From contig PBMR01000014.1 in NCBI GenBank assembly GCA_002722735.1, forward strand, positions 1-64,000: a stretch of DNA of 64,000 nt, written 5' to 3'. Source of the DNA: Methanobacteriota archaeon (lineage in GTDB: Archaea > Thermoplasmatota > Poseidoniia > Poseidoniales > Thalassarchaeaceae). Shown here piece by piece: positions 33,396-62,153 of the stretch. Numbering within the stretch: the first letter of the stretch is position 1; every line of letters starts with the position of its first letter. Under the pieces are notes generated by a model. That model was not told the DNA's origin, made no database searches, and saw only the letters and a program-made list of their open reading frames with translations. The translations under genes were made by a program, and so were the position numbers.

Positions 33396-33404
33396 GGTGA
33401 AATT

Positions 33405-38513: not shown

Positions 38514-38520
38514 AAGAAAT

Positions 38521-40244: not shown

Positions 40245-40255
40245 GGGGCGAGAAG

Positions 40256-41011: not shown

Positions 41012-41033
41012 ACATTACGGAGTATGATATGCG

Positions 41034-42260
41034 ATGCGCGAAGTCGTGGTAGTCTCAGCAGTTCGCACACCAATAGGCAATCATGGTGGTGCACTGGCCA
41101 AGGTCCGCTCCGATGATTTGGCGGCACTGGTCATTCGTGAAGCGGTCCAAAGGGCTGGCTTAGAAGGGGGGGAGATTGATGAGGTCTACTTCGGCTGCAC
41201 CAATCAGGCTGGAGAGGACAGTCGCAACGTGGCGCGCATGGCGACCCTAATTGCTGGACTGCCTACCTCGGTCGCCGCTGTGACTTTCAATCGATTATGC
41301 GCATCGGGTCTGAGCGCACTGAATGCAGCGGCTAGGGCGATTCGCTGCGGTGAGGGGGCTGTCTTTGTCGTAGGGGGGGTCGAATCGATGTCCCGCGCCC
41401 CCTATGTGATGGCCAAACCCGAAACCGGCTTCGCTTGGGGGGACCCCAAGGTCCACGACACTACCATCGGTTGGAGATTCTCCCATTCCGGGCTGCGAGA
41501 TCAATTTGGCAATGATGGAATGGGCGTGACAGCTGAGAATCTGCGCGAATTGGAAGGGGTTGAAGCAGGGAAGACTTCGCGTCAAGAGCAGGACCGCTTC
41601 GCTGTACAGAGCCATCAACGAGCCATCGCAGCCATTGACAGTGGTAGATTCGATGCGGAGATCGTAGCTGTAGAGGTGCCACAGCGGCGTGGTGATCCGG
41701 TCGTCGTAGATACTGATGAGCGACCACGACGGGACAGCACATTGGCGAAAATAGCGAAACTGCGTCCGGCATTCAAGAAGGACGGGAGCGTGACTGCGGC
41801 AAACTCCAGTGGTATCAACGACGGAGCGGCGGCTCTGGTGCTGATGAGTTCCGACAAGGCTGCAGAGCTTGGAATCGAACCCCTGGCCACCTGGCTCGCC
41901 TCAGCTGCTGCGGGAGTCGCACCGCGAACAATGGGATGGGGGCCCGTCCCCGCCACACGAAAAGCGCTTGAGAGGGCGGGACTGGGAATCAACGATATTG
42001 ATTTGGTTGAGTTGAACGAAGCGTTCGCTGTCCAAGCCCTGACCTGTGTCCATGAACTCGGACTCGAAGAGGAGTCTGTGAATGTGAATGGGGGGGCTAT
42101 AGCCCTAGGGCATCCTCTTGGTTGCTCGGGAGCTCGCATTGTGGTCACTCTGCTGCACGAGATGGCCCGCCGCTCAGGGAGTTCTGAGGCGACGCTGCAC
42201 GGCCTTGCCACCCTCTGCGTCGGTGTAGGGCAGGGTGAGGCAGCCATCTTCCGCCGTTGA
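41034..42260 (+). CDS. Acetyl-CoA acyltransferase (thiolase)
   Basis: [68 protein letters not shown]. Confidence 0.93.
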
Positions 42261-42311: not shown

Positions 42312-43553
42312 TCAGATCAGGTTCTCTTCACGGAAGCCCTCAATTTCCGCATCAGTGAAACCCGCCTCGTGGCAGAGGGCGTTCGTCTGCTCGCCAGAAT
42401 GGGGTGGGAAGGGGATCTCCTCCGAATCCACTGAATGGTCGTTCGCTTCAGTCTGAGTTTGGGGTTGATCGAAAGGCGATGGCGGCAGAGGGATTTCCAC
42501 GTCTGTCGGACTCCTTGTGCGGAACAAATGCTCAGCAATGCCATCCATTGCCAGTGTAGCCTCGACCTCGTTGATTGGGGCTGCTACCGTCCCAACCGAG
42601 CGCCAATCTGAGAGCACATCCTCCAAGGAGCGTTTGGAAGTCAGGGCGGCTATTTCCTCATCTATTTCTTCCCGTTCGAGAATCCGTCCTTCGTTCGTGC
42701 TCCGACTTGGCGAGTCGAGACTGCTCATCCACTCCAGACTCAATAATCTCCTCCACTGGTCATCACTGCCATTGGCGAGGAAGGCCCAGCCATCTCGGGT
42801 TGGGTAGGTGTTTACTGGCCCGAACATTGGATGACGGTTGCCACTTCGAGCGAGACGACCCTTCGAGACACCCATTGAAGGGAGGGGAAGTTTCGTCGGC
42901 AACCACGAGACAGCACAGCGAGCCATGGAGATATCTATGGGTTGGATGGTGGCAGTCTCACTTCTTTCTAATCGAGCAGCATCACGCTTCCAAAGGGCTA
43001 ACAACACTGCTGTGAACAGTTGTTCTCCAGCGAGCAGGTCAATCATTGGCACCCCCGATGCTAGGGGAATCCCATCTGCCTCTCCTGTGAGGGACATGAA
43101 GCCCAATTCTCCTTGCATCGCTGGATCATAACCCGGTCTTGAGGGATGGTCTAAGCCCCATGCTGAGAGCGATGCCCAGATTAGCGAGGGGCTGATGGAT
43201 TGTAGTTTGGCTGCATCAATTCCCAGTTTGGCATGGTTGCGAGGCAGGGTGTTGCAGCAGAAGACATCGATATCGAGACGAGTCAAAATCTCACATAGCA
43301 GCTCTTGCCCCCTTGCAACGGAGAGGTCAATCGCCAACGATTCCTTTCCTACGTTTGGGGCGATGAAGTAGGCACATAGGTCCTCTCCGCCGACCTCTGG
43401 TCCAATGAAGCGGTTGGGATCTCCTCTCCGCACACCCTCACGAAGCGGCATCTCGAGTCTGATTACCCGCCAGCCCATTCGCACCATACGCTGTGTGGCA
43501 TGTGGTAGGGAGAGCCCCTGTTCAAGCGATAGGACCAGGGGGGTCTGCGTCAT
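42312..43553 (-). CDS. CoA-transferase family III (CaiB/BaiF)
   Basis: [74 protein letters not shown]. Confidence 0.85.
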
Positions 43554-46029: not shown

Positions 46030-47572
46030 GTCCGACCCCTCCCCCAAGACGGGCTGCATGCCTTTCTAGTCCGGATAGCAGCCGAAGATACCCGGTGCAG
46101 CGACAGAGGTTACCCTCTATCGCACGAGCCAGCTCTTGCTCCCCGCCACCTCCTCCGTTGAGGAAGTGAGAGAGGCCAGAGATCACCATCCCCGGAGAGC
46201 AGAAACCACACTGCACGCCTCCTTCGATGAGCATATCTTCCATCAGGTCATGCAACTCGCCATCCGGTGCGTAGACCCCTTCCACTGTGACTACCTCCCT
46301 CCCTTCGCATTCGACAGCCAATGTGAGGCAGGATTGGACCGCTCGGCCATCCAGAAGAACTGAGCAGGCACCGCACTCCCCCTCCTCACAAGCTATCTTG
46401 GTTCCAGTCAGATTCTCATCCTCGCGCAATAGGGCAACCAATGTAGCCCCAGCTGCGATGTTACGACGCATAGGCCCACCGTTCAGAGTGAAATTGACTT
46501 CGATATCCCCCTCTTGTAACTCAGCACTTGGTTGCGGCGTCATAGGTGGGAGCTCGCAGTTCGTCAATGCTGAGCCGGATTGGGTGATGGTCATTCGCTG
46601 CGGAGGCTCGTAACCGTTGAAGTCAGAATAACCCATGCGGGCGGCTATGCCATCCAGTGCTCGATGTGTCAGCACCTCGACAAGGTGGCGTCGATGTGCA
46701 GCAGAGCCACGCACATCATCAATCGGACTTGCTGCCTCTGCTGCCATTCGGGAGGCTCTGGAGTGTCCTTCTTTCGAGCCAAAGCCACCTTCTGCAAGCA
46801 GTTCAGCGACTTGGGGAACTAGTAGTGGGGTGGGTGCGACCGCACCCAGCGCCAGTGAAGAACGGCACAATCCGCCATCCCCATCCGGCTCGACGGCCAA
46901 GGTGATAGAGACGATGGAGATATCCTTGGCCGGACGGCGACAGTGTTTCTCGTAGGCGACCCATCCGGAGTCCGGGAAGATTGGCAGTTCCACAGCGACT
47001 AGCAATTCATCGGCGGCCAGTGCACAACGTCCGGGTCCGAGCCAGAATTCAGCAAGTGGGATGTGGCGTTCATCTACACTCCCATCCCGCCATCCCGCGC
47101 AAACAACTACTGCCTGATGCACGAGCAGCGGTCCGGCAGTATCGGCGGCCGGCGAGGCATTGACTAGGTTTCCTCCCAAGGTTGCCGCATGCCGGATTTG
47201 GAACGAAGCGAAGAGGTCGCAGGCAATCGCCAGCGCCGGTGCGTGAGCAGAGATCAGAGGGGATCGACGCATCTCTTCGATAGTTGTCAATGAACCGATA
47301 CGTAACATATCGCCGACTACTTCGATGCCACTCAGTTCGGAAACCGAACGCAGGCTTAGCAATGATTGCAAGCCCCCCTGCTCCGGGCTATCCAGCCAAC
47401 GCATCCGCATCCGCGGCATGAGGTCAGTCCCTCCGGCCCAAACCAGCGGTGGATATTCCTGAGTCGAAGATTCTGCGAGGTAGCGCACCGCGGCGCTCAA
47501 AGTGGCAGGGGCAATGTATCCGCTGATGCCCAGCTCCCAATCCATCCTAGTTCCCCTTGCTTCAGGCCTCAC
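46022..47572 (-). CDS. Fused xanthine-dehydrogenase-family subunit: N-terminal FAD domain, C-terminal [2Fe-2S] domain
   Basis: WAGGTDLMPRMR...HAATLGGNLVNASPAADTAGP (FAD) followed by CEEGECGACSVLLDGRAVQSC...CGFCSPGMVISG...EGNLCRCTGY ([2Fe-2S]). Confidence 0.9.
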   Translation of the reverse strand: MRPEARGTRMDWELGISGYIAPATLSAAVRYLAESSTQEYPPLVWAGGTDLMPRMRMRWLDSPEQGGLQSLLSLRSVSELSGIEVVGDMLRIGSLTTIEEMRRSPLISAHAPALAIACDLFASFQIRHAATLGGNLVNASPAADTAGPLLVHQAVVVCAGWRDGSVDERHIPLAEFWLGPGRCALAADELLVAVELPIFPDSGWVAYEKHCRRPAKDISIVSITLAVEPDGDGGLCRSSLALGAVAPTPLLVPQVAELLAEGGFGSKEGHSRASRMAAEAASPIDDVRGSAAHRRHLVEVLTHRALDGIAARMGYSDFNGYEPPQRMTITQSGSALTNCELPPMTPQPSAELQEGDIEVNFTLNGGPMRRNIAAGATLVALLREDENLTGTKIACEEGECGACSVLLDGRAVQSCLTLAVECEGREVVTVEGVYAPDGELHDLMEDMLIEGGVQCGFCSPGMVISGLSHFLNGGGGGEQELARAIEGNLCRCTGYLRLLSGLERHAARLGGGVGLE

Positions 47573-49665
47573 AATGGTATTCGTTCCTGTCGCACCCCAT
47601 GACAGTCCCTCATAACGTCATAGACTTCTCCTACCGTGACTTCTGCCGCAGCCGCAGCGAGCATCGCTGGCATTACTGAGATGCCCGAATTCGCCGCTTG
47701 GCGCAACTCTTCCAACGCAGCCTCGACGGACCCATCATCCCGTCGAGTCTTACGTTCTGCCAGTTGCGCACTCTGGTGCGAAACGATTTCTCCACTCCAA
47801 GGATGCAGTTCAACTTGGGGCTCTTGAGTCGCATCGGGATGGAGATGCCGATTTACTCCGACCTGAGCCCTCTCTCCACTGGATATCGCTTCGGCCTCAG
47901 CAAACGCCTGGTATGCTAGTTTTGCCTTTAGTCCCCCATTGGCGACTTGGCTGACTACGCCTTCGGATCCCTCCAGCGCTTCTAATTCCTCGACCATAGC
48001 CTCCTCAAGTTGGTTTGTCAGCGTCTCGACGTACCAAGAACCAGCGAGTGGGTCTACTGTCTGTGTCACGCCAGTCTCCTCGGCTAGAATCTGCATCGTG
48101 CGCAGAGAAAGAAGGGTGGCTCGTTCGGAAGGTATGGTGAATGCCTCATCGAAGCAACACAGGGCCATTGTCTGAGTTCCTCCGAGAGCGCTTGCGAGAG
48201 CGAAGTATGAACTGCGGATGAGATTGTTCTCCGGCTCAAGGAAGGTGAGGCCACCCCCACCACCACCCGCCATCATTCGCAGGCGCATCACCTTCTCATC
48301 CTCACAGGCGAAGCGTTCCTTGAGCAATCGAGCCCAAAGGCGACGAGCAGCACGGAATTTCGCAATCTGCTCGAACAACAGACCATGGATGTCGAAGTTG
48401 AAGGATAGGCGACGAGCGACCTCGCTTGCCACCAATCCCCTTTCCTGTGCCTGTTGGATGTAAGTCAGGGCGAATGCGAAGGCCCAAGCTATCTCCTGCA
48501 CCGGATTTGCACCCGATTCACGCAGATGATATCCACACACACTCACCGGGCTTGCCTTGGGCATCTGCGTCACACAGTATTCGATTGAGTCAGTGACCAT
48601 GTTCAGGGCGGGTTCCACTGGTAGGAACCACGCCCCTCGGCCGACGTATTCCTTCAGCATGTCATTTTGCAGGGTCAGACGCAGCACTGCTGGATCCATG
48701 CCCCTGCGTCGGGCGAGTTCGCACATCATCGCCAGCAGGTAGGGAGCGGGGGCATTGATGGTCAGGGCGATGGAGACCTCATCGAGAGGGATTCCATCGA
48801 GGGCGAGATCGAGATCTTCGACGCTGTCGACAGCCATCCCAACCCGTCCGACCTCCCCCGCAGCCCGTGGATCGTCGGAATCCAATCCCATCTGGGTCGG
48901 TAGGTCGAAGGCGACATTGAGTGCATTCTGCCCTCTCTCGAAGAGGAATCTGAATCTTTCATTGGTCTCTTGTGGGGTCCCGAATCCAGCGTACTGGCGC
49001 ATTGTGAACATGCGGCCACGATACATCTCGGGATGGATGCCTCGAGTGAAGGGGTATTGACCCGGATTTCCGACTCTCCCAAAACCACCTGACTGCTCAA
49101 CGTCCTCGGGCCCATAAACAATCTTGATGGGCAGGCCAGATTCATGTACTGGCTCGGCCGCCTTAGCCGAATCCTTGCTATGTTTGACCTCGGTCCCAGG
49201 GGTATTGGAACCTCGGTCATTATCACTCGCACCAGCCCCCCTCAGTGGTCGGCCGAGTCGGTCACCGAGGGCGGTGAACCAGGTGATGACCGAGTGGAGG
49301 CTGGTAGACGATGGAAATACTTCGTTTATGCCCAGAGCGAGTAGAGCCTCCTCATCACGCTTGGGAATGGGACCACCAACCACCCACGCCTCAAGGTCTG
49401 GAATCGCTGACTGCAACAGTGGAGCCAATTGCTGACATAGGGGGAGATGAGCTCCAGAATGTATGGAGAGTCCGACAACCTGAACATCCTCGTCAGTAGC
49501 AATGCGGGCGATGGCCTCGACCTCGGCGTGCAGACCAGTGTAAATCACCTCGCAGCCGGCATTGCGCAGCGCCACTGCCAGCACTAGGCCTGCTCGGTCA
49601 TGCCCGTCTAGTCCCGGTTTGGCTAGTAAGACTCGCAGAGGTCCTTTCTCACAGTCGAGATCCAT
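47569..49665 (-). CDS. Methylmalonyl-CoA mutase-family protein with N-terminal B12-binding domain fused to catalytic domain
   Basis: RVLLAKPGLDGHDRAGLVLAVALRNAGCEVIYTGL (B12-binding DxHxxG) then FTRGIHPEMYRGRMFTMRQYAGFGTPQETNERFRFL...VAFDLPTQMGLDSDDP...GYHLRESGA. ORF extends to 49932, but ATG at 49665 fits the operon spacing. Confidence 0.88.
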   Translation of the reverse strand: MDLDCEKGPLRVLLAKPGLDGHDRAGLVLAVALRNAGCEVIYTGLHAEVEAIARIATDEDVQVVGLSIHSGAHLPLCQQLAPLLQSAIPDLEAWVVGGPIPKRDEEALLALGINEVFPSSTSLHSVITWFTALGDRLGRPLRGAGASDNDRGSNTPGTEVKHSKDSAKAAEPVHESGLPIKIVYGPEDVEQSGGFGRVGNPGQYPFTRGIHPEMYRGRMFTMRQYAGFGTPQETNERFRFLFERGQNALNVAFDLPTQMGLDSDDPRAAGEVGRVGMAVDSVEDLDLALDGIPLDEVSIALTINAPAPYLLAMMCELARRRGMDPAVLRLTLQNDMLKEYVGRGAWFLPVEPALNMVTDSIEYCVTQMPKASPVSVCGYHLRESGANPVQEIAWAFAFALTYIQQAQERGLVASEVARRLSFNFDIHGLLFEQIAKFRAARRLWARLLKERFACEDEKVMRLRMMAGGGGGGLTFLEPENNLIRSSYFALASALGGTQTMALCCFDEAFTIPSERATLLSLRTMQILAEETGVTQTVDPLAGSWYVETLTNQLEEAMVEELEALEGSEGVVSQVANGGLKAKLAYQAFAEAEAISSGERAQVGVNRHLHPDATQEPQVELHPWSGEIVSHQSAQLAERKTRRDDGSVEAALEELRQAANSGISVMPAMLAAAAAEVTVGEVYDVMRDCHGVRQERIPL

Positions 49666-49676
49666 TGTTTTCGAAA

Positions 49677-50888
49677 TCAGCACTTCACCTCCACCACGAC
49701 AGCCATCGCCGAGTCTCCAGCTGCACAGCCGGAGAACAGGCCTAGCCCTCCACCGCCGAGAGTCAATTCTTCGATCAACTCGATAACTGCCCGCAATCCT
49801 GTCGGTGCTTGTGGATGGCCCCAGATGAGGGGGGAGCCATAGCGATTGACCGTCTCGGGTTGAAGGCCGAATTGACGACAGAAGTAGACATCGTTGATAG
49901 CAAATGGATTGTGAGTCTTGATGCCAGCACAATCCTCGATAGTGATTCCAGCAGAATCCAAGGCATCCTGTGCCGCGGGAACAGCAGCCATCGGCATTAG
50001 CCCCTTGTCCACACGAGCGGTTCCAAAGGAACGCACTCGAATGCTGACTCCTGAATCACTGCTCAACTCCTTGGCCCGTTCCTCTGTGCACATCACTAGG
50101 CCAACATTGCCATCCGCTGGGTGAGTCTGCGCTCCGAAAGTCACCACCCCTCCTTCGACGACCGGGCGAAGGTTGGCCAACCCATCTTCTGTGGTTGGGT
50201 GCACTCCTTCATCCTGCTCGAGGGTGCCAATGGTGCGGCGCCCTCGACGTAGTTCGACTGGAACCATGTAGCGGTGCTGAAAGGCGCAGTCATCAGCAAG
50301 TGAATCCTCGTATTGCGAATAGCGCAGCAGAGTCATTGCATCTTGTTCTTCGCGGCTGATGCCTTCCTTGGAGGCCACATTTTCTGCTGTTGAAACCATC
50401 GCCCCCCCCGCCCAGGGGTCACGACCGAAATTGTCCCACACCGGGTCCTCTGCTATTCCCTTGCCACCCGGGCCACTGGGGTCGGGATAGTAGATGTGAG
50501 GGCCGTTGCTAGTGCGGTCAGCGGCGATGTTGAGAAGGCTCTCATACTGGCCACACTCGACTTCTTGCGCTGCAATTGATAGCATGCGCACAGATGTGGC
50601 GCAGGCTTGTGAGACGGTCGGTCCAGTGATGTTGGGGGCTCCGAGCATTCCCGCGACCCACGGGGCACCGTAAAATGAGGCATTCTGAGGTACGGTAATA
50701 CCGAGCACCAATCCATCGAAACCGGCTGGATTGATTTCACGCGCGGCCAGAGCCGCAGAACCAATCTCAGCTGCTAACTCCAATGAGTGGCGTTGGCCCA
50801 GACTGCCTTGCCAGCGGGCGAAGGGGGTGCTCCAATAGGCACCGTAGGGGATGAAGACTTTCTCGTATGGCACCCTATTCCTCCTCAA
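49677..50888 (-). CDS. Thiolase-superfamily protein with atypical active-site motifs
   Basis: QACATSVRMLSIAAQEVECGQ (nucleophilic Cys region), KTHNPFAINDVYF in place of NEAFA, WGHPQAPTGLR, LFSGCAAGDSAMA. Confidence 0.75.
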   Translation of the reverse strand: MRRNRVPYEKVFIPYGAYWSTPFARWQGSLGQRHSLELAAEIGSAALAAREINPAGFDGLVLGITVPQNASFYGAPWVAGMLGAPNITGPTVSQACATSVRMLSIAAQEVECGQYESLLNIAADRTSNGPHIYYPDPSGPGGKGIAEDPVWDNFGRDPWAGGAMVSTAENVASKEGISREEQDAMTLLRYSQYEDSLADDCAFQHRYMVPVELRRGRRTIGTLEQDEGVHPTTEDGLANLRPVVEGGVVTFGAQTHPADGNVGLVMCTEERAKELSSDSGVSIRVRSFGTARVDKGLMPMAAVPAAQDALDSAGITIEDCAGIKTHNPFAINDVYFCRQFGLQPETVNRYGSPLIWGHPQAPTGLRAVIELIEELTLGGGGLGLFSGCAAGDSAMAVVVEVKC

Positions 50889-52048
50889 AGCCCTAGCTCA
50901 CGCGCCACCGAGAGCAGTAATATCTCGGAAGTTCCACCTCCGAAGAGTGTGAACCACGAATCGCGAAGTATTCTCTCGACTGGATATTCGGTCGAGTATC
51001 CATAGGAAGCGAGGGTCCGCATGGCCGCCTGACTAGTGGCGAGCGCGGCCTCGGAAGCCTTCCATTTGGCCATGCAAGCACGACCTATGAGCCCCAAATC
51101 ATCTCCGGAGGGGGGAGATTCTCCCGAAGTCGCTAGCTCGGCTCTTCTCGCCACATCATCGACGAGAACTCGTGCCGCTTCAAGCTCAGTCGCCACTTCG
51201 GCTAGGCGTAGTCGAGTGGCTTGGAACTTGGCAAGAGGGCGGCCGAACTGCTCCCTCTCCCCGGCATAGTTGAGGGCCTCTTCCAGAGCCGCTCGCCCCA
51301 AACCGAGAGCTAGAGCAGCGGTTTGGATGCGAATCTCGACTAGAATCTCACGTAGTGCGCTCATTCCTTCGCCGAGTGGGACTAGAACCCTCTCTTGCGG
51401 TACGACAACGTCCTCAAGGAAGAGCTCGCATGTCACAGATCCCCTCACGCCCAGTTTGTCCAATTGGCGACCCAAGGTGACTCCTTGTTGGTCAGCAAGC
51501 ACGAGGAAAGCACCCAACTCCCCCTCATTGTCTCCACGGGCAAAGACGGTGAAGAAATCAGCCACAGGGGCTGAAGTGACCCATGTCTTCTGGCCGTTGA
51601 GTGTGAATTCCCCTGAATCAGAGCGGTTTGCTCGGGTGGACATGGAGCGCAGGTCAGAACCTGAATTTGGCTCGGTCATGCAGATAACGCCAATTGCTTT
51701 ACCAGCAATTGCCGGTTCAAACCATGTGGAACGGATATCGGCATCACCACAGCGATAGAGGAAGTGAGTCCCCATTAGGGATTGCATCAGACAAGCAGCT
51801 CCAAGACTGCCTGAGCCCCACGAAATCTCCTCGATCGCAGTGGCAAGGGCACGCATACCTAGGCCACTTCCACCCACATCTTCGGGATATCGCAGTCCGA
51901 AACAACCAATCTCACCCGCTTTGGACCAGAGCTCTTGAGGAAACGAATCATCCGAATCGATAGCCGCAGCCTGCGGCCTCACCTCATTAGCTGCGAAATC
52001 TTGGAATAGGCTGCGAATCTGCCCCAGAACCTCATCATCGCCGTGCAC
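50885..52048 (-). CDS. Acyl-CoA dehydrogenase
   Basis: ICMTEPNSGSDLRSMSTRA, FTLNGQKTWVTSAPVADFFTVFA, LGVRGSVTCELFLEDVVVP, YGYSTEYPVERILRDSWFTLFGGGTSEILLL. GTG at 52048 is a plausible start. Confidence 0.9.
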   Translation of the reverse strand: MHGDDEVLGQIRSLFQDFAANEVRPQAAAIDSDDSFPQELWSKAGEIGCFGLRYPEDVGGSGLGMRALATAIEEISWGSGSLGAACLMQSLMGTHFLYRCGDADIRSTWFEPAIAGKAIGVICMTEPNSGSDLRSMSTRANRSDSGEFTLNGQKTWVTSAPVADFFTVFARGDNEGELGAFLVLADQQGVTLGRQLDKLGVRGSVTCELFLEDVVVPQERVLVPLGEGMSALREILVEIRIQTAALALGLGRAALEEALNYAGEREQFGRPLAKFQATRLRLAEVATELEAARVLVDDVARRAELATSGESPPSGDDLGLIGRACMAKWKASEAALATSQAAMRTLASYGYSTEYPVERILRDSWFTLFGGGTSEILLLSVARELGL

Positions 52049-52064
52049 TCCCGGTCCCCCTCCC

Positions 52065-53810
52065 TCATGCCCCTCTTCGCTTGGCTTTCTGTGCTTTGCG
52101 CCGAGAACGACGCTCAGAGATGCTGCCCGCAGCATCGATTATTCCTTCAGAATCGAGCACTACGCCATAATCCTCGCTAGCCCGTGTGCTGCTGATGTAA
52201 CCTCGTTCAAGATCAGCGGCGACCAACTCCAACTCTCGATCCAGTGGATTGCCAAAACCCCCCCCTCCCGCGGCGTCCATAGTCACGACATCACCGGGTT
52301 GAAGTTGGGTCAATCCATACGGGTCACCAGCCTCATTATTGACAGAGAAGTGTGCCAGACCACCAGAACATCCACCGTTCAGACCCTCGGGCGGTAATTG
52401 GAATCGACCCGATTGAAGTCCCATATTGACAGGTCCGCTGAGTGCCGATTCCCCCTCAGGAACGCGGAAGACGACTCTACGTCCAAGGCCGCCACGCTGT
52501 TTGCCCGCCCCTCCAGAATCAGGTAGAAGTTGACGGCACTCGATATGAAGCGGAGTCTCACTCTCAAGGATCTCAACCGGTGTGTTGGCGCCATTGGCCG
52601 GGAAGATGAAGCAATGCCCCCCATCTTCGCCCTGACTGGCACCCATGCCACCACCACGAATGATTACAGTGTGCCATGGAACGCCCACGTGGTCCTTGCC
52701 ATAGAAGACGTTCATCGTCGCCGGTGTTCCTCCGCTAGCGGCGAGAACCCGGTCCGGTAGAGCCGGAGAGAGAGCGCGATAGACAACCTCGGTGAGAAAA
52801 TGCCCAATCTGCATCCTTGCGGCGACAGCGGCGGGGAAGTGGCAGTTGACGACGCTCCCCTCGGGGGCTATGAGTCGAATCGGTGCTGCAGAACCATGGT
52901 TGTTCGGGACTTCGGGATCGAACATCGACTTGAGGGCCATGAACACGTAGGCGTAGGTGAAATTGTATACCACATTCCCGCCCCATCTGACTTCAGCTGA
53001 TGAGCCACTGAGGTCGACAGTAATCTCATCACCACTAACTTCGATGCTTGCAGCGATTGTCAGATTGGGCTCCTCGGGCCTCTGTTCAATCTCGACAGAG
53101 GAGGTGTAAATTCCGTCAGCCAGTTCAGTTATTGAAGCACGCATGCTGGCTTCTGTGCGCTCGATGATCTCATCGGCTAGATCATCCAGGGAATCGAGTT
53201 TGTAGTCGGAGAGTAGCTTGCATACCTGAATGGCGCAGACATGGTTCGCTGCGGTCTGCGAGCGAATGTCACCGACGATTTCGTCCGGAGTGCGGACGTT
53301 CCAACGAATCATATCGAGGACTTCTTCGTTGAGTTTCCCGCCCGCATAGAGTTTGACGAGGGGAATGAAGAGACCCTCCTCGAAGACGTCCCGGTTGTCC
53401 GAGGCGACCCGCCCCCCTATATCGGAATGGTGGAAGACACAGGCCGTGAACCCGACCAATTGTTCGTGGTGGAAGATTGGTGAGAGCACGCAGACGTCGT
53501 TGAGATGGCCAGCGAGTGCCCAAGGGTCGTTGGTGATGAAAACATCCCCGGGCTGGAGCTCAGATGTGACGAACTTTTCGACGATACTCTTGATGCCCAG
53601 AGCCATGGCACCAGATTGACCGGGTGTGGCGAGAGTTCCTTGCGCCAACTCGCGCCCTTGACGGTCAGTGAACATGCACGTGTAGTCATGGGCATCGCGC
53701 AAGAGGGATGAGAAAGCCGTACGCGCGACAGTCACGTCAGCCTCGTCAACGATGGAGATGAGGCGTCGCCAGAGGATTTCCAGCGTGATTGGGTCGAACC
53801 TCTCGCTCAC
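52065..53810 (-). CDS. HyuB family (N-methylhydantoinase B / acetone-acetophenone carboxylase alpha-like)
   Basis: FDPITLEILWRRLISIVDEADVTVARTAFSSLLRDAHDYTCMFTDRQGRELAQ; GDVFITNDPWALAGHLNDVCVLSPIF. Confidence 0.88.
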   Translation of the reverse strand: MSERFDPITLEILWRRLISIVDEADVTVARTAFSSLLRDAHDYTCMFTDRQGRELAQGTLATPGQSGAMALGIKSIVEKFVTSELQPGDVFITNDPWALAGHLNDVCVLSPIFHHEQLVGFTACVFHHSDIGGRVASDNRDVFEEGLFIPLVKLYAGGKLNEEVLDMIRWNVRTPDEIVGDIRSQTAANHVCAIQVCKLLSDYKLDSLDDLADEIIERTEASMRASITELADGIYTSSVEIEQRPEEPNLTIAASIEVSGDEITVDLSGSSAEVRWGGNVVYNFTYAYVFMALKSMFDPEVPNNHGSAAPIRLIAPEGSVVNCHFPAAVAARMQIGHFLTEVVYRALSPALPDRVLAASGGTPATMNVFYGKDHVGVPWHTVIIRGGGMGASQGEDGGHCFIFPANGANTPVEILESETPLHIECRQLLPDSGGAGKQRGGLGRRVVFRVPEGESALSGPVNMGLQSGRFQLPPEGLNGGCSGGLAHFSVNNEAGDPYGLTQLQPGDVVTMDAAGGGGFGNPLDRELELVAADLERGYISSTRASEDYGVVLDSEGIIDAAGSISERRSRRKAQKAKRRGA

Positions 53811-55918
53811 TCCCCCATCACCTCCGTGAGGTCACACCAGAGGAAACCGTACTCATCGACTTCCACCATGGCTCCAGATGGGACGATGAGGGTCGACTCA
53901 CTCTCTTCGACAATAGCAGGCCCATGAAAGGAGTCACCAGGAGTGAGGTGGTGCCGATCCCAGACCTGATGGGGGATGAAATCCTCGCTATGCTCCGAAA
54001 AGGCGAGACGTTCCCCCTTGAGTGCCTGTGGATGGGTCTCTACAGAGATTTCTGAGGAAGGTAGGTCGAGTAGCTTCACCGGTAGGCTCGAACGCAGGCG
54101 CAGATTGACCAACTCGAGCGGCGTGTCTGGGTAGGTGCGCCCATAGAGTCGCTCGTAAATGACATCGAAAAGATTCCTAATCCCCTCTGTTCCGATGGTT
54201 GCAAGGTCGCCGGAAGGCAAGGGAACGTTGGTCTCGGAGCCCTGGCCGATAAAGCGTGCGTCCAAGGAGCGTGAATGCGTGACTCCCTCCTCACCAGCAT
54301 CGAGTCCAAGCGCTATCTCACCCTCCTTTCCCAATTGCTCGAAGATCCCATCTACCCGCTTGAGGTCAATCTCAGATAGAGCGACCTTGTGACTTCGAGC
54401 GGTGTCGAAGGCGCGTGGAGCGGTGAAGAAGCCCAGTGCCGAACCCACTCCTGCATGTGGTGGGATGACCACTCGGCTAGCTCCAATCTTCTGTGCCAGA
54501 CCTGCGGCATGGACCGGTCCCGCCCCTCCGAAGGCAGCCAATGTAACCGTCACGGGATCACCCCCCTTCTCTGCGATGTGAGTCTTCGCTGCGGCAGCCA
54601 TTGTCTCATTGATCATGTCGTGAATCCCCCATGCCGCTTGGACCAAGCTGATTCCCAATGGTACAGCGATGCATTCTTCGATCCCTAGTCGAGCTGCTTC
54701 GATGTCAAGTTGCATCGTCCCCCCGAGGAAATGGTCGGCATCGAGGTAGCCCAGAACTAGATCAGCATCGGTGACGGTAGGCTGGCTGCCCCCCTGTCCA
54801 TAGCAACAGGGCCCCGGTTCCGCACCCGCGCTCTCCGGTCCAACCTGCAATGTCCCCATTCGGCCGATTCTGGCGATGCTCCCCCCTCCAGCCCCAATCT
54901 CCATCAGGTCAACGACCGGAACTTGGATCTTCAGTCCACTACCGCGCATGAATCGCTGTACCCGCCCGACCTCGAAGGTCGGCACGACCCCAGCCACGCC
55001 ATCTTGGATGAGACATGATTTCGCCGTGGTACCCCCCATATCGAAGCAGAACATCTCAGAGATGTCGAAGAGGCGTCCGTAATACTGGCCAGCGATGACT
55101 GCTGCTGTGGGCCCCGACTCAATGATGCGCACTGGGTGTTCGGCCGCTGTCTCCACACTAGTGATCCCACCACTGGAGAGCATGATGAACAGCCTTCCAG
55201 AGAACCCGATTTCTTCCAATCGAGAAGACAGGCAAGTCAGGTATTCCTCTGTCAGCGGTTTGACATAGGCATTCGTAACGGTGGTGCTGGTACGTTCGAA
55301 CTCCCTAATCTGAGGCAACACGTCGTAGGAAATGGAAAAGGGGATTCCCGGAGCGATTTCGGTGATGAGGGACTTTAGCTCCTGCTCGTGCACGGGGTTG
55401 GCGTAGGAGTTGAGTAGGCAGACGGCAATTGAGTCGACCTGCCGGTCGAGCAATCCGTTGATCGCCTGTCGGGCCTGCTCTGTTTCGAGTGGGGTGAGAA
55501 TAGAGCCGTCCGCAGTCACCCTCTCATCTACCTCGACGCGCAACTCACGTGGCACGAGTGGCAGGGGAAACTCGGCCATGATGTCAAATGGCGCGTAGCG
55601 AATCTCGCGCCCCAGTTCGAGTATGTCTCTGAAGCCTTTGGTTGTAATCAGGCCAGTCCGTGCTCCCTTGCGCTCGATGATCGCATTGATGACTAGGGTC
55701 GTGCCATGTATCAGTTCGTCTAGCTTGGAGACGAAACCAGGTTCCTCGATATCGATCTGCTCCATTCCCTTGACCACTGCGTCAGACGGGTTTGAGGGAG
55801 TCGTCAGGCATTTGTGGATGGTCAACTCACCAGTCTCTTCGTCAAGCAGGACAAAGTCAGTGAAGGTGCCCCCCACATCGACTCCGAGCCGCTGCTTGAG
55901 CGCCCCCCTTTCACTCAC
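53807..55918 (-). CDS. HyuA family (N-methylhydantoinase A / acetone-acetophenone carboxylase beta-like)
   Basis: LGVDVGGTFTDFVLLDEETGELTIHKCLTTPSNPSDAVVKG; LIHGTTLVINAIIERKGARTGLITTKGFRDILELGRE; FDMGGTTAKSCLI. Confidence 0.9.
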   Translation of the reverse strand: MSERGALKQRLGVDVGGTFTDFVLLDEETGELTIHKCLTTPSNPSDAVVKGMEQIDIEEPGFVSKLDELIHGTTLVINAIIERKGARTGLITTKGFRDILELGREIRYAPFDIMAEFPLPLVPRELRVEVDERVTADGSILTPLETEQARQAINGLLDRQVDSIAVCLLNSYANPVHEQELKSLITEIAPGIPFSISYDVLPQIREFERTSTTVTNAYVKPLTEEYLTCLSSRLEEIGFSGRLFIMLSSGGITSVETAAEHPVRIIESGPTAAVIAGQYYGRLFDISEMFCFDMGGTTAKSCLIQDGVAGVVPTFEVGRVQRFMRGSGLKIQVPVVDLMEIGAGGGSIARIGRMGTLQVGPESAGAEPGPCCYGQGGSQPTVTDADLVLGYLDADHFLGGTMQLDIEAARLGIEECIAVPLGISLVQAAWGIHDMINETMAAAAKTHIAEKGGDPVTVTLAAFGGAGPVHAAGLAQKIGASRVVIPPHAGVGSALGFFTAPRAFDTARSHKVALSEIDLKRVDGIFEQLGKEGEIALGLDAGEEGVTHSRSLDARFIGQGSETNVPLPSGDLATIGTEGIRNLFDVIYERLYGRTYPDTPLELVNLRLRSSLPVKLLDLPSSEISVETHPQALKGERLAFSEHSEDFIPHQVWDRHHLTPGDSFHGPAIVEESESTLIVPSGAMVEVDEYGFLWCDLTEVMGE

Positions 55919-56580
55919 TCGGACACCTCTGCTTCTGCATTTTCCCAGAGGTGAGCCTCATGCAAAAACTCCTCGCCCGCATCGAAAGCACGTAATCCAC
56001 TCTCCCAGCGTTTGCTGGAGAGTTGTTCGCTAACCCCCTCACGCAATTCCTGTACGGACAGGCCAAGCATCTCATTGCCTGCTGCCCATCCAAGGAGGGC
56101 CATACCGGGATCAGTTCTGAGCACCACGTCCCATTCGTTTCCCGGGAGGGCGAGAAGGTGCAGTGTGGGGCAGAAACCCCTCAGTTCTGAGATTAGCGCC
56201 CCTCGGCTCGGACTGGGTTGTGCCTGTTCTAGGAATGGTGAGCGAGAACGGCGAAAATCCAAGGAGATGATGGCACCCTTTTCAGCAACAAGCTCTGCTT
56301 GGCGGCATGTTTCCATCAATTCCAGGCCGATTAGGAGTTCGACCGAATGAGGCGGGACATGCGTCGAGGCCTCCGAGCCGGAGCGAATCGAAGCACATAC
56401 CGTCCCTCCCCTCTGTGACATGCCATGCAATTGGCCTAAAGTGACCGAAGAATCACTGGTGTGCAGCACTTCACCGAGCATTCGGGTAAGGGAAATGACA
56501 CCCTGTCCGCCAGTACCTGCGACGAGAATGTTTTGGGGAATTGATGGGGAAATTGCGCCTCCACCTTCCCCTGAACTCAT
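55915..56580 (-). CDS. iorB: Indolepyruvate-type 2-oxoacid:ferredoxin oxidoreductase beta subunit
   Basis: NILVAGTGGQGVISLTRMLGEVLHTSDSSVTLGQLHGMSQRGGTVCASIRSG. 4-nt overlaps on both sides. Confidence 0.88.
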   Translation of the reverse strand: MSSGEGGGAISPSIPQNILVAGTGGQGVISLTRMLGEVLHTSDSSVTLGQLHGMSQRGGTVCASIRSGSEASTHVPPHSVELLIGLELMETCRQAELVAEKGAIISLDFRRSRSPFLEQAQPSPSRGALISELRGFCPTLHLLALPGNEWDVVLRTDPGMALLGWAAGNEMLGLSVQELREGVSEQLSSKRWESGLRAFDAGEEFLHEAHLWENAEAEVSE

Positions 56581-59500
56581 CTTGTGACCTCCACGATGGC
56601 CCCATTAGGACATAGATCGGCGCAGACGCGACAACCAGTACAAAGATCCTCAATGATGTGAGCACTCCCATTTACTTCCTCGATAGCCGGGCAATCGAGA
56701 ATTTCCAGACAAGCCGAGCAGTTTGCGCAGGAGGAGCAGAAGTGGCAAGCATGGGCGGCGGCCATTAGTGTCACTGAATCAAGCTCAGCGGGGTATTGGT
56801 GCGCGGGGGTATGAACTTCAACAGTGGAATGTTGCCTCCCACGATCATCTGGTTCGCCTAGTGCGTCCACGCTGCCGTTCGAGTGTAGGACTGGGCCTTC
56901 AGAGTCGAGGAAATCGAGTTGAATCAATGGCTCATCCACTACTCCGCTGGTGGATAGCAGCCTATCCAGGCCGGCAGCTGCCCTTCGACCACTGGCCAAT
57001 GCCTCGACTACGGTGCGTGGTCCGCCACAAAGATCGCCAGCAACGAAGAGGCGATCGCTTCCTGTTGCCGACGAACTGCTTACATGGCCATCACTGTGAT
57101 TGCAAACCAATGATCCATCAGAATTAACCGCCAGGCCCAGATTTTCCAATTCTGATGGTAAATCGAAACTTTGCCCAATTGCAAAGAACAGCCGATTGCA
57201 CTGCAGTTGCTTAGGTGATTGTGTGCCCTCGACTAGGGAAGAGTCTGCAAGGTAAAGGGTGTGCAACTCATCAGCGTCCGTTGAAACGCGTTCAACGATC
57301 GAACCACTGATGAATTCCAATCCATCACCCATCGCAATCTCAATTTCTTCACTAGCCGCCGGCATGTCCTCGCGTCGGCGACGATAGACGAGCGTCGTGC
57401 TCCTCGCACCACCCAGTTGACTGCTACGAACAGCATCGATGGCAGCATCGCCGCCACCGACGACCACGACATCAAGCCCCTCGAGACTCTCCAGTTGCTG
57501 CTCCCCACGAGCTAGTCGGCGCAAGAGTTCGAGAGCGGATTCGATTCCTGCAGCGGGCAGCCCCTCGATATCGGGCACCATGCCCTTACTGGCACCCAGT
57601 GCGAGGATTACTCCCGCATTCTTTGTGAGCAGGTCGCTCAGGCTCGTATCGACTCCCAATTGTGAGCCACCATGGAAGGCGATTCCGAGGTCAAGCACCC
57701 GCTTAATCTCCATCTCCAGCTTATCACGAGGCAGTCGAGCAGGGGGGATGGCGTGAGCCAACAACCCTCCCGCCCTCTCATCCCGATCATGTAGGTTGAC
57801 CCGGTAGCCAGCTGCGGCTAGGTCGTGTGCTGCCGCCAAGCCGGCCGGCCCAGCCCCAATGACTGCGACGGAGACCCCATTCGAATCTACGGGAGTGAGG
57901 GGGGGCAATCCACCATCGCGCGCTATTACGGAATCGACAGTCAGTCGCTTTATCTGATTGATAGGAATGCTTCCATCAGCACTCCCCGCCTTCACACATA
58001 CGGTCTCGCACGGATGATGACAGACGTGTGAGAGGACGGCAGGAAATGGCGTTCGCTGGTGGATGGTGGCCAATGATCCATCAAAATCCCCTGCTGCGGC
58101 CAATCCAACATACCCCTGGATGCAGATGTTGAGGGGACAGGCTGTTGCACAAGGTGTCTGGTCTGGAATGGTGAGCAGATCCTCCGTTGGGGGCGGGGAC
58201 TCTTGGCGTCGGCGCACTAACTCTTGTTCGTATGGAACTCGAATGTCTACGCCGCAGTGTAGATTCGATGCGCAGGAATGAGCACAGTGGCGGCAACGCC
58301 CGGAATCGACTTGGAAGAGGGGCAAGGGGGAGCTATTCATTCGGTTTTCATAGATAGGACATGGATCAGTAGCCACGAGCACGGTGGGTCCGCTGCTAGA
58401 CCAAGCGTTACGGAAGGCAGCAGCCATCGCAGGAAGATTCAGAGCCTCGACCACTTCGACCTGTGCCACCCCGAGTGCACGACAAACATCAGCGATGTTC
58501 TGCTCTTGGCTCAATCCGGTGACTAGGGGGATCGGCTCCTCCATGACATCATCGGCACTGACCAAGTCCTGAGTACCCTTCTCGCCCGAAAGTCCCCCTT
58601 CACTGGTCGGGCTGGGTTGGAAACCAGTCATTGCAGTAGTCCGATTATCCAGCACAACCACGAGCACGTCATCATTCTGTTCGACGATGTTGGCCAAGCC
58701 TGGCATTCCTGCATGGTAGAAGGTCGAATCTCCGACGAAGGCGACAGTACGCTCTCCGGTCAACCTACTCACAACCGAAGCCTGACTGAGGCTACTGCCC
58801 ATGGAGAGCACACTCTGAGCAGCATCGAAAGGCGGCCCGTAGCCCAAGGTGTAACAGCCGATGTCATTGAAGCAGAGCGGTTTGGGTCCGAGAATCATGC
58901 GCATGGCAAGATAGCTTCCCCGATGAGGACATCCGGCACACAAGATTGGGGGCCGCATTGGCACTTCCAGTTTCCCAGAATTGTGAGTGATGGCACCATT
59001 TTGGGGATCACTCGCCCTGCCGTTGCCCTCAGAACCAATCTTATTCGGCGAGAAATAGCGATCCAAGGTAGCGACAAGTGTGGGAGCATCGAGCTCACCA
59101 TGGGAGGGAAGCCAGCCATCGAGCATTCCATGAATCTCCCCCTCCCATCCATGTATCTGGGCCAACAGTCGCACCTCCTCCTCGAGAAATGGGGACCCCT
59201 CCTCGACTACCAGTAGTTTTGACGAACCAGCCAATAGGTCGAGAACAGGTGCGTCGGGGAAGGGATGAACCACCCCCAGCGTTAGCAGTACTATGGGCGG
59301 TAGTTGCCGATTTTGGGATAATTGCTCCAGATTATCTCGCAATAACCATGCAGGTGCACCGCTAGAGATGAGCAATAGTGGCTCCTCTCCTTCGGTTTGG
59401 GATTGCGGACTCCAGGTTCGAGCGAATGAAGGCCTCTCAGCCCATTCTTGGGCCGTCGCGAGCCGCCCCTCGATTTCGCCTCGCATACGTCGAGCATTGC

Positions 59501-60131
59501 TCGGCAGGGGGCATAGGCGAGAAGCCTCGCGCGGAAAGTCTGCAGGTGCACCACTTTTCCGAGGGGGATCTATGCGAACCGGTGCGCGCGCATGACAGAT
59601 GCGAGTGGTGACGCGCATGAGGACGGGTAGGTTGCAAGCTTCTGAGAGCGCGAATGCATCGCGCGCCATATCATGAGCAGCCTGCGGGGTATCGGGGTCA
59701 ATACAAGGCATATGCCACGCCTTTGCTAATTGGCGCTGGTCCTGCTCGTTCGGCGAGGTGTGGCAACCGGGGTCACCCGCGCTGACTATGAGCAGCCCGG
59801 CACCAACTCCGACATACGGCATCGTGGCAGCGGGATCGGCTGCCACATTGAGTCCCAGATGCTTCATGCTGGTGATGCTGCGCACACCTGATAGAGCAGC
59901 GGCGTGGGCTACCTCAAGGGCGATTTTCTCGTTTACACTGTATTCTTGAACTACCTCACCGCTCTGAGCGATGGCAGCGAATCCGTCCCCAATCTCACTA
60001 GCGGGGGTACCGGGATAACCACTTGCGAATCCCACCCCCGCGGCTCGTGCCCCGGCAACAATCGCTTCATTCCCAAGCAGCAAGCGGGCAGGTGGAATTT
60101 GTTCTGAGGTGCTGTGACTATCCGAATCCAA
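56577..60131 (-). CDS. Multidomain fusion: IorA (TPP 2-oxoacid oxidoreductase) + GltD-like FAD/NAD(P) oxidoreductase + C-terminal 4Fe-4S ferredoxin domain
   Basis: IorA: GNEAIVAGARAAGVGFASGYPGTPASEI...CAGCPHRGSYLAM...FNDIGCYTLGYGPP...FVGDSTFYHAGMPGLANIV. GltD: CATACPLNICIQGYVGLAAAGDF...VAVIGAGPAGLAAAHDLAAAGY...VVVGGGDAAIDA...LFVAGDLCGGPRTVVEALASGRRAA. Ferredoxin: CHFCSSCANCSACLEILDCPA...CTGCRVCADLCPNGAI. Confidence 0.9.
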   Translation of the reverse strand: MDSDSHSTSEQIPPARLLLGNEAIVAGARAAGVGFASGYPGTPASEIGDGFAAIAQSGEVVQEYSVNEKIALEVAHAAALSGVRSITSMKHLGLNVAADPAATMPYVGVGAGLLIVSAGDPGCHTSPNEQDQRQLAKAWHMPCIDPDTPQAAHDMARDAFALSEACNLPVLMRVTTRICHARAPVRIDPPRKSGAPADFPREASRLCPLPSNARRMRGEIEGRLATAQEWAERPSFARTWSPQSQTEGEEPLLLISSGAPAWLLRDNLEQLSQNRQLPPIVLLTLGVVHPFPDAPVLDLLAGSSKLLVVEEGSPFLEEEVRLLAQIHGWEGEIHGMLDGWLPSHGELDAPTLVATLDRYFSPNKIGSEGNGRASDPQNGAITHNSGKLEVPMRPPILCAGCPHRGSYLAMRMILGPKPLCFNDIGCYTLGYGPPFDAAQSVLSMGSSLSQASVVSRLTGERTVAFVGDSTFYHAGMPGLANIVEQNDDVLVVVLDNRTTAMTGFQPSPTSEGGLSGEKGTQDLVSADDVMEEPIPLVTGLSQEQNIADVCRALGVAQVEVVEALNLPAMAAAFRNAWSSSGPTVLVATDPCPIYENRMNSSPLPLFQVDSGRCRHCAHSCASNLHCGVDIRVPYEQELVRRRQESPPPTEDLLTIPDQTPCATACPLNICIQGYVGLAAAGDFDGSLATIHQRTPFPAVLSHVCHHPCETVCVKAGSADGSIPINQIKRLTVDSVIARDGGLPPLTPVDSNGVSVAVIGAGPAGLAAAHDLAAAGYRVNLHDRDERAGGLLAHAIPPARLPRDKLEMEIKRVLDLGIAFHGGSQLGVDTSLSDLLTKNAGVILALGASKGMVPDIEGLPAAGIESALELLRRLARGEQQLESLEGLDVVVVGGGDAAIDAVRSSQLGGARSTTLVYRRRREDMPAASEEIEIAMGDGLEFISGSIVERVSTDADELHTLYLADSSLVEGTQSPKQLQCNRLFFAIGQSFDLPSELENLGLAVNSDGSLVCNHSDGHVSSSSATGSDRLFVAGDLCGGPRTVVEALASGRRAAAGLDRLLSTSGVVDEPLIQLDFLDSEGPVLHSNGSVDALGEPDDRGRQHSTVEVHTPAHQYPAELDSVTLMAAAHACHFCSSCANCSACLEILDCPAIEEVNGSAHIIEDLCTGCRVCADLCPNGAIVEVTR

Positions 60132-60140: not shown

Positions 60141-62153
60141 TCATTTATGGCAGAACTCAGCTGGGCTGCGTGGGCCGTGCTGGAGGAAGTTCTCTAGCCC
60201 AATGTGCATGTCTTCTGTCTCATAGCAATCTCCGAAGGCACTAACTTCCAATTCCAATCCCTCTGCCAAGGACATCTTCCACCCATCCTCGACCGTACGA
60301 ACCAGAATCTTGTCGATCAGACGACTACGGTGCCCGATGTCAATCTCTACATCGAAAGCTGTTGGCTGTTGTGGTTCGGTGGGTAGGTGATTGGCTCGAG
60401 TCTTCTGCCCCAATAGTGCCTCAAGATGAGTGAAGGCGGAGGGGAGGAACGGCTGCTCGACGAGCCCATCGACGAGCCCCGATGCCAACGCGTCTTCTGC
60501 GCTCATAACACGCCCTGTTCTCATCATCTCCAGCGCTGGCCCCAGTCCGATGAGTCGTGGTAGCCTCTGGGTGCCGCCTGCCCCGGGAATGATGCCTAGG
60601 TTGGTCTCGGGCGCTGCAGCAAGAAGCGGGAGCCCAACAGGAGCGAGTCGTGCAGTGCAGGCAAGAGCAAGTTCCAAGCCACCACCAAAAGCCAGACCGT
60701 TGAGAAGCGCCACGACTGGTTTGGGACCGGATGCTATTGCATGGAAGGCCGCTTGTGTGCGCCTGCTGATTGCTTCGGCCCCCTCCCTGCTTTCTAACCC
60801 GGCCAGCATGTCGATATCTGCTCCGCTGACGAAGGCCTTGGTACCAAATCCGGTCAGTACCACTGCACGAACCAATGGGTCGGTCTGAGCGGTATTGAGC
60901 GCCTTCTCCAGTTGTTCTAGGACCAACTCATTCAGCGCATTAAGCTGCAGTGGCCGCCGGATGGTGATGATGGCGAATTCGCCTTCACATCGTGAATGCA
61001 CGTAGCTGGGCGGAGGAGCGGTTCCAGAAGCGATCCATTCGCGAATGCATCTCGCGCGTGGCAAATCAGGCCAACGGTTCTCCGCCAGCCTCATAGCCTG
61101 CTCGACACCATCGGCACTGAGTCGACGGAATATTGTCTGAGGCGAATCGATGACTAACGCAATCTCGATTCCAGATTCAAGATCAGAGGCTGAGAGAACC
61201 CCCGCATCGATAATCTCGCCGCATAGAGCTAGATACGCACCATGGAAGAGGGGCAGCACTGCATCACGTTGCTTAGCAGACAAATCGACGGTTTCACCTC
61301 GTTTGGCAGTGTCCCACCTCTCTCCGCTGGCAACCATCTGGTCAAGCAGGGCCGGTGGCTTGTACCAAGGGGAGATCTCAGAACCCATTCTTGCCAATCC
61401 CTTGGCTGTGATCGGGTTTCCTCCAGTCAGATTCATTGCTGTGAACGGGCCGACTACCAACCCAAGAGCCTCACAGGCCAGTCGGTCAACCTGACGCGGC
61501 TCCCCCATTCCCGAAGCGACTAGTTCAGTCGCCACCTGCACCAAGCCCTCAAAGATTGGATCGATGGCATACCCATAGCGACTATTGACCCTGAAGGGCA
61601 CCTTACCTATCGTTTCGTACATCGACAAAAGACGCTGCAAGGCCTCTTCGGCAAAGTTGGGATGAGGTACGAGTTCCACTACTCGATTACGCTCTGCAGG
61701 GAAGAAGTAGTGGATGACAAGACATCTCTCAGGATGCGGGGTTGCTGAGAAAATCTCCTCAGGAGTGAGGTGTGATGAATTGCTGGCTAGGACTGCATTG
61801 GGTGAGAGCAGTTCACCCAGTCGAACCATTATCTGGTGCTTGATACCCACTTCCTCGGTGGCCGCTTCGATAACCAAATCGGCACCAGCGAGTTCAGTGA
61901 CATCTTCGGTGAAGTGCAGGGATGCAAGCATCTTGTCGACCGCTGCTTGGCGAAAGGCCCCGCTCTTGACCCCCATGTCCAACTTCCGCTCGATCTTCTC
62001 TCGGCCGCGTTCCAGTGCCGAAGCATCGATGTCCTGCACGATGACCCGGCTGCTTTGATCGACTAGGGCCTTGGCGAAATGCAATGCAATATCGGGGCCA
62101 ATCTGCCCACTACCAACCACCCCAACAGTACCTAACCACTTCGTCGGATGCAT
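60141..62153 (-). CDS. Fused 3-hydroxyacyl-CoA dehydrogenase (N) / enoyl-CoA hydratase (C)
   Basis: VGVVGSGQIGPDIALHFAKA...ASNSSHLTPEEIF...HYFFPAERNRVVELVP (HCDH); GFGTKAFVSGADIDMLAGL...LNGLAFGGGLELALACTARLA (ECH). Confidence 0.92.
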   Translation of the reverse strand: MHPTKWLGTVGVVGSGQIGPDIALHFAKALVDQSSRVIVQDIDASALERGREKIERKLDMGVKSGAFRQAAVDKMLASLHFTEDVTELAGADLVIEAATEEVGIKHQIMVRLGELLSPNAVLASNSSHLTPEEIFSATPHPERCLVIHYFFPAERNRVVELVPHPNFAEEALQRLLSMYETIGKVPFRVNSRYGYAIDPIFEGLVQVATELVASGMGEPRQVDRLACEALGLVVGPFTAMNLTGGNPITAKGLARMGSEISPWYKPPALLDQMVASGERWDTAKRGETVDLSAKQRDAVLPLFHGAYLALCGEIIDAGVLSASDLESGIEIALVIDSPQTIFRRLSADGVEQAMRLAENRWPDLPRARCIREWIASGTAPPPSYVHSRCEGEFAIITIRRPLQLNALNELVLEQLEKALNTAQTDPLVRAVVLTGFGTKAFVSGADIDMLAGLESREGAEAISRRTQAAFHAIASGPKPVVALLNGLAFGGGLELALACTARLAPVGLPLLAAAPETNLGIIPGAGGTQRLPRLIGLGPALEMMRTGRVMSAEDALASGLVDGLVEQPFLPSAFTHLEALLGQKTRANHLPTEPQQPTAFDVEIDIGHRSRLIDKILVRTVEDGWKMSLAEGLELEVSAFGDCYETEDMHIGLENFLQHGPRSPAEFCHK

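Follow-up and report, generated by a model that had tools for sequence, protein, structure and literature searches.

We analyzed a 64,000-nucleotide stretch of DNA (the window; contig PBMR01000014.1) from a Poseidoniales archaeon, in which a minus-strand gene (56577..60131) encodes an IorA-type core, a GltD-like flavin module and a ferredoxin domain in one polypeptide of 1184 residues. Together with its partner subunit IorB, this fusion is probably a thiamine pyrophosphate (TPP)-dependent arylpyruvate oxidoreductase, with indolepyruvate as the most likely substrate, that feeds the anaerobic indoleacetate (iaa-type) pathway of its own operon. The neighbouring genes identify the pathway as iaa-type, and thus the first job of the fused enzyme would most likely be substrate entry, i.e. 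the conversion of indolepyruvate to indoleacetyl-CoA, and not electron supply as such.

The iaa-type operon

The operon occupies positions 62153 to 42312 as read on the minus strand. Its first gene is a 3-hydroxyacyl-CoA dehydrogenase/enoyl-CoA hydratase fusion (HAD–ECH; 60141..62153), recognized by domain matches, which is followed by the IorA–GltD–ferredoxin gene and iorB. Next come a HyuA-type ATP-dependent lactam hydrolase/carboxylase subunit, which is a candidate for opening the oxindole ring (53807..55918), its HyuB-type partner (52065..53810), an acyl-CoA dehydrogenase (ACAD; 50885..52135) and a thiolase that may catalyze the final step of side-chain oxidation (49677..50888). The last four genes encode a B12-dependent acyl-CoA mutase with an N-terminal B12 domain in the putative IaaGH role (47569..49932; the true start is probably 3′ of the listed TTG), fused FAD and 2Fe–2S subunits of the xanthine dehydrogenase (XDH) type (46022..47572), an XDH-type molybdopterin subunit that is the candidate indole C2 hydroxylase (43564..46059) and a family III CoA-transferase in the putative IaaL role (42312..43553). 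Apart from the ACAD, these genes downstream of iorB are assigned from their domains and the gene order.

The ACAD is assigned by its motif, FGGGTSEI, in which GGG replaces the YEG usual in the family. The GGG motif marks orthologues of IaaF, the decarboxylating (2-aminobenzyl)malonyl-CoA dehydrogenase of anaerobic indoleacetate degradation, all of which are encoded with further iaa genes (PMC8360864). In the window, the GGG dehydrogenase, the CoA-transferase and the B12 mutase stand together in one operon, as they do in Aromatoleum aromaticum. The content of the operon matches the iaa pathway, and we know of no other pathway that it would match. The Aromatoleum iaa genes also include XDH and hydantoinase genes, as in the window operon. 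There are differences between the two systems: the window operon contains no genes for electron-transfer flavoprotein (ETF), its mutase and XDH subunits are fused, and entry would proceed by the fused Ior and not by a ligase. The Aromatoleum pathway (IaaB, IaaL, IaaGH, IaaF), which has been reported in Ferroglobus placidus too, begins with the ligase IaaB forming indoleacetyl-CoA (PMC8360864). No AMP-binding CoA-ligase (PF00501; IaaB) is found among the open reading frames scanned between 29 and 62 kb; the role of IaaB is therefore vacant, and the Ior could supply indoleacetyl-CoA directly. A 2-oxoacid:ferredoxin oxidoreductase (OFOR) has been shown to give a product consistent with indoleacetyl-CoA from indolepyruvate (PMC13290082).

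The same gene set recurs outside the archaea. In the Myxococcota genome G688 the order fusion–IorB–HyuA–HyuB–ACAD(GGG)–thiolase–mutase is identical, and G693 agrees up to the end of its contig. G769 carries the fusion, IorB, HyuAB, ACAD(GGG), mutase, CoA-transferase and XDH genes in a single run, and much or all of the set is also present in G593. The delta contig G060 C563 encodes a HyuA and a mutase that are 66% and 56% identical to those of the window, along with a GGG dehydrogenase, a CoA-transferase, XDH-type proteins, the fusion and, as judged by eye, ETF-like proteins. The GGG dehydrogenase is thus shared by the homologous delta/Myxococcota loci, and the common set and order make the fused Ior a recurrent part of the iaa-type operon.

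The window HyuA is 65–67% identical to proteins of four fusion-carrying delta/Myxococcota genomes, and the HyuAB pairs at L155 (G751 C73), L157 (G594 C5) and L148 (G591 C289) are 65–70% identical to the window pair. The identities of these pairs are far above those for the window fusion (∼40%) and for the HyuA beside the fusion in G688, G693 and G769 (35–38%), so the genes of the operon may have different histories. On checking, the HyuA matches of five further genomes from the same taxonomic order proved to be HyuAB pairs without the other operon genes. The B12 domain joined to the mutase and the XDH FAD subunit joined to the 2Fe–2S subunit are separate proteins in the Myxococcota operons; several fusions within one operon suggest streamlining by gene fusion. 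A RidA-like (Ribonuc_L-PSP) protein is encoded divergently from the operon start (62490–62942, plus strand).

Modular organization of the fused protein

The fusion is a single intact open reading frame (60131→56577), and the plus strand at the same coordinates is riddled with stop codons. A TTG serves as the start codon, with a GAGGTG motif a few bases 5′ of it. Domain matches and the alignment of the fusions define an IorA core (∼16–626), a GltD-like FAD/NAD(P) module with Fer4_20 (∼654–1065) and an IorA-type 2[4Fe–4S] domain (1129–1179). The Pfam matches are POR_N (27–190), TPP_enzyme_C (423–586), Fer4_20 (658–736), Pyr_redox_2 (754–1048) and Fer4 (1158–1179); among NCBIfam models, TIGR03336 (IOR_alpha) matches residues 16–626 with 554 bits and PRK12771 matches residues 654–1179 with 330 bits. 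The TPP motif GDS..N, the CxGCxHR motif and the flavin and NAD(P) glycine motifs are invariant in the aligned fusions. The solved proteins most similar in sequence to the GltD module are NADP-linked flavoproteins and Nfn-like complexes, and the GltD-like modules of NfnA, Nfn and DPD-type proteins are close to it. IorB, a gamma-domain subunit (PF01558; 55915..56580), starts at 56580 on the same strand, and its start shares four nucleotides (ATGA) with the stop of the fusion. A first-pass annotation, made from the sequence alone, had already given these coordinates, the three-part polypeptide and the overlap with iorB, all of which agree with our analysis; the minus strand is added here.

Compared with IorAB (TIGR03336/TIGR03334), the window proteins share the TPP core, the CxGCxHR motif, a separate IorB and a 2[4Fe–4S] domain of the same type. 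They differ in the GltD-like module between the core and the ferredoxin domain, in the remnant CX2CX9C with three invariant cysteines directly after the core, and in scores that fall below the curated cut-offs. The 'indolepyruvate ferredoxin oxidoreductase' models PRK13029/13030 (∼1170 residues) are similar in length and annotation; however, they describe an IorA–IorB-type fusion without GltD, and assignment of the window protein to PRK13030 was rejected at 97 bits against the 816 required. KorABC of Azoarcus evansii and PadEFGHI are 2-oxoacid oxidoreductases with a GltD-like subunit that are tied to benzoyl-CoA metabolism. Likened here by description only, they share the GltD-like FAD/NAD(P) component, which is fused in the window protein, whereas theirs are separate subunits acting on other substrates and the window has a single polypeptide with an IorA-type core. 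AadN, the Nfn-like electron donor of R. palustris, is likewise a GltD/Nfn-family flavoprotein serving benzoyl-CoA reductase but has no part that oxidizes 2-oxoacids (PMC9973337).

Arrangement of the iron–sulfur sites

The iron–sulfur ligands were compared in an alignment of 16 fused homologues, the window protein and 15 others. The internal cluster region CRHCAHSCASNLHC is degenerate, as the first-pass annotation had observed, and is reduced to CX2CX9C at 613–626. Nevertheless, Cys613, Cys616 and Cys626 are invariant in 16/16 fusions and Cys620 is variable. Since the three cysteines are kept throughout, the reduced site is a feature of the family and not the decay of a single gene. The N-terminal domain of the GltD module contributes six invariant cysteines (Cys661, Cys665, Cys670, Cys704, Cys708 and Cys712), and the C-terminal module ten, from Cys1129 to Cys1174, in all 15 rows long enough to be scored. 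A hidden Markov model built from 33 stand-alone IorA proteins matches the fusion twice: through the core to residue 627, and again at 1134–1182 against profile positions 565–613. By this profile, residues 1134–1182 are IorA's own ferredoxin domain, lying behind the GltD module. The alignment therefore describes a family in which the cluster region of the IorA core is reduced and an IorA-type ferredoxin domain stands behind GltD. The C-terminal module, previously described as 4Fe–4S, is an Fe–S module, and is more exactly an IorA-type 2[4Fe–4S] domain.

Proposed reaction sequence

IorA/IorB would oxidize and decarboxylate indolepyruvate with CoA, giving indoleacetyl-CoA, CO2 and two low-potential electrons. 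Through the Fe–S clusters the electrons would reach the flavin module of GltD type and the terminal 2[4Fe–4S] domain, and from there NAD(P)+, a soluble ferredoxin or both would be reduced; substrate, route and acceptor are inferred here. By homology, the XDH-type hydroxylase would then oxidize indole C2, HyuAB would open the lactam with ATP, and the family III CoA-transferase, the B12 mutase, the GGG decarboxylating dehydrogenase, HAD–ECH and the thiolase would yield 2-aminobenzoyl-CoA, which the adjacent bcr operon would take onward. Ebenau-Jehle (2012) and Schuhle (2016) reportedly describe XDH-type hydroxylation of indole C2, ATP-driven ring opening by HyuAB and 2-aminobenzoyl-CoA as the end product. 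The proposal that oxidation of an aryl-2-oxoacid gives an arylacetyl-CoA is retained here as the entry of indoleacetyl-CoA; benzoyl-CoA, also proposed, is not expected as a direct product.

Distribution and phylogeny of the fusions

The window genome (G000; 1.4 Mb, 80% complete) contains one copy of the fusion gene. It is not found in 60 close relatives, whose matches are short and of the ferredoxin/flavoprotein type. A domain search across archaea had been suggested; in our survey, 232 of 390 genomes of the host phylum have matches at 1e-30. The strong ones are stand-alone IorA proteins, and besides the window's own there is no full-length fusion among the matches listed. Stand-alone IorA occurs in many archaeal genomes, none of those listed belonging to the window's own family. 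Matches from Desulfobacula and Bathyarchaeota (L010–L012, L014) were rejected as fusions because they are of the GltD type with no IorA joined to them. Homologous fusions are carried by 15 delta/Myxococcota genomes (1133–1195 residues, 36–43% identical; the one in G060 is truncated by the contig end). Our literature search returned no paper on the fused architecture, nor on benzoyl-CoA genes in Myxococcota.

The 16 fusions group together in the IorA tree as a single clade (100/99), which divides into three subclades. The window fusion, on a long branch, is basal in the subclade that also holds eight Myxococcota sequences (100/100), and all eight come from genomes that encode Oah, a component of the benzoyl-CoA operon described below (G693 is counted on a partial match, 452.9 bits, where its contig ends). 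Within the second subclade, G061 alone has Oah. Among 195 Myxococcota genomes, with Oah scored at E ≤ 1e-100 and relatedness ignored in the tests, Oah is present in 9/12 genomes with the fusion against 24/183 without it (Fisher p = 6e-6) and against 2/16 with stand-alone IorA (p = 0.0015). The architecture alone is not diagnostic of ring reduction, since one subclade mostly lacks aromatic genes.

The benzoyl-CoA-type operon

The iaa-type operon adjoins a divergently transcribed bcrCBAD–dch–had–oah operon on the plus strand. Profile matches identify bcrC-, bcrB-, bcrA- and bcrD-like subunits of an ATP-dependent benzoyl-CoA reductase (32205..36297), followed by a dch-like hydratase, had, a hemerythrin-domain protein, an oah-like gene, a short-chain dehydrogenase/reductase and a thiolase (36621..42260). 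Had (TIGR03201) scores 416.1, above its cut-off of 338.65; the oah-like gene (TIGR03200) reaches 447.7 against 464.45, and the Bcr subunits are below their equivalog cut-offs. The stretch 32205–42260 thus appears to encode a near-complete upper benzoyl-CoA pathway in a Poseidoniales archaeon. Directly upstream lie a Rieske ring-hydroxylating oxygenase alpha subunit and a pectinacetylesterase-like protein (29542–31978, plus strand). Three hemerythrin-domain proteins are encoded, one between had and oah (38311–39093, plus strand) and two elsewhere (26–769, minus; 12451–12954, plus), with a possible function in protecting oxygen-sensitive enzymes from O2 or NO.

As had been stated in the first-pass annotation, a stand-alone ferredoxin is not visible in the window, where other CxxCxxCxxxC motifs occur only in narH and ABCE1; however, a short Fer4 protein (116-residue open frame) is encoded on another contig of the same genome. 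In Hermodarchaea/Hermodarchaeota (L008, L009), a GltD-type protein of 836–846 residues is encoded after the bcr genes, and IorA and IorB come next, all unfused. Read from gene order, these Asgard archaea have the same association without the fusion. In bacteria, benzoyl-CoA reductase is linked both to the Nfn-like AadN and to KorAB, a 2-oxoacid oxidoreductase (PMC9973337).

Evaluation of alternative explanations

Several observations weigh against a role in substrate entry. The TIGR03336 score lies below the curated cut-off of 650.9, so the core is homologous but not an equivalog by the NCBI rule, and IorB also scores under its cut-offs. OFOR sequences give no reliable reading of substrate specificity (PMC13290082). 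The roles of the mutase, CoA-transferase and XDH are putative, being drawn from family and context. The structure predicted from five sequences (mean predicted local distance difference test 41.6, predicted template modelling score 0.28) is too poor for use. Finally, 3/4 members of subclade B come from genomes that have neither Oah nor HyuA, and in the two neighbourhoods viewed the surrounding genes are non-catabolic; thus, the fused enzyme can probably serve other purposes. The refutation named beforehand, an architecture widespread in organisms without aromatic degradation, is therefore partly borne out by this subclade; the fusion genomes are enriched for the ring-reduction pathway.

The first-pass annotation regarded the protein as an electron source. 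As the main purpose of a general aryl-2-oxoacid oxidoreductase, low-potential electrons for benzoyl-CoA reductase are possible but doubtful: the lack of a ferredoxin gene in the adjacent bcr operon, the excess of Oah in fused Myxococcota, the Hermodarchaeota gene order and the KorAB and AadN precedents argue for it, but the gene lies in the iaa-type operon and outside the bcr operon, the fusion is kept in three Oah-negative genomes, and the genome has a short ferredoxin-type protein elsewhere. What stands of the earlier proposal is a TPP-dependent 2-oxoacid oxidoreductase with GltD beside a benzoyl-CoA-type operon and the enrichment for ring reduction; electron supply as the primary job most likely does not. 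It may survive as a second role of the fused Ior, and the stoichiometry fits, as one turnover (2 e−) would cover one ring reduction (2 e−). The GltD module could also act in a bifurcating or confurcating enzyme, combining or splitting electrons of NADPH and the 2-oxoacid to drive ferredoxin reduction, as its proximity to NfnA, Nfn and DPD-type modules and the conserved additional Fe–S clusters might suggest; this is improbable, since the fusion has no NfnS-type partner domain and ordinary IorAB reduces ferredoxin from 2-oxoacid oxidation alone, so that bifurcation is not needed. Slightly less probable again is ordinary oxidation of Phe, Tyr and Trp to acyl-CoA for energy, with coincidental neighbours and no relation to indoleacetate breakdown. 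Stand-alone IorA is indeed widespread and the subclade B fusions lack an aromatic context, but the archaeon and Myxococcota share the operon order, and a GGG-type dehydrogenase lies within the same operon.

An assembly or binning chimera, in which a bacterial stretch was joined to an archaeal contig, is the least probable explanation, and we consider it very unlikely. The two operons are alike in codon usage (distance 0.047) and unlike the neighbouring genes (0.10–0.12), with a third-position GC content (GC3) of 0.58–0.61 against 0.75; this difference and the absence of the fusion from the 60 close relatives would both fit a chimera. However, the two operons lie inside a contig of 129,449 bp with archaeal-type genes on both flanks (ABCE1 to the left, DUF359 to the right, where COX1/2 and a class-I aldolase are also encoded); the GC content is fairly level across the island, and the window copy forms a long branch of its own and shows additional gene fusions unseen in the bacterial loci. 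The codon usage together with the absence from relatives points instead to acquisition as one island. The contig also carries a complete narG–narH–narJ–narI operon followed by two major facilitator superfamily transporters (2352–8997, plus strand; TIGR01580 and TIGR01660 above cut-off). PMC6461757 reports nitrate reductase in only three Poseidoniales metagenome-assembled genomes, and its text contains neither 'aromatic' nor 'benzoyl'.

Implications

It has long been asked how cells pay for the very negative electrons that benzoyl-CoA reductase requires. At this locus, substrate activation and electron supply would be united in one gene, and the operon conserved between Myxococcota and the archaeon is a system in which that idea is testable. 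If substrates enter by way of the fused Ior, tryptophan would be expected to reach the anaerobic auxin-degradation pathway without a ligase. An archaeon that has a small genome and is probably planktonic appears to have imported a nearly complete anaerobic aromatic pathway, and narGHJI lies on the contig that carries it. More tentatively, and with less than even confidence, the enzyme may be a self-contained arylpyruvate dehydrogenase that meets the electron cost of its own ring reduction. It would belong to a transferable package of 30 kb with which a marine nitrate-respiring archaeon mineralizes tryptophan and auxin anaerobically via 2-aminobenzoyl-CoA. If this is true, one polypeptide would oxidize indolepyruvate, conserve the thioester and deliver the electrons.

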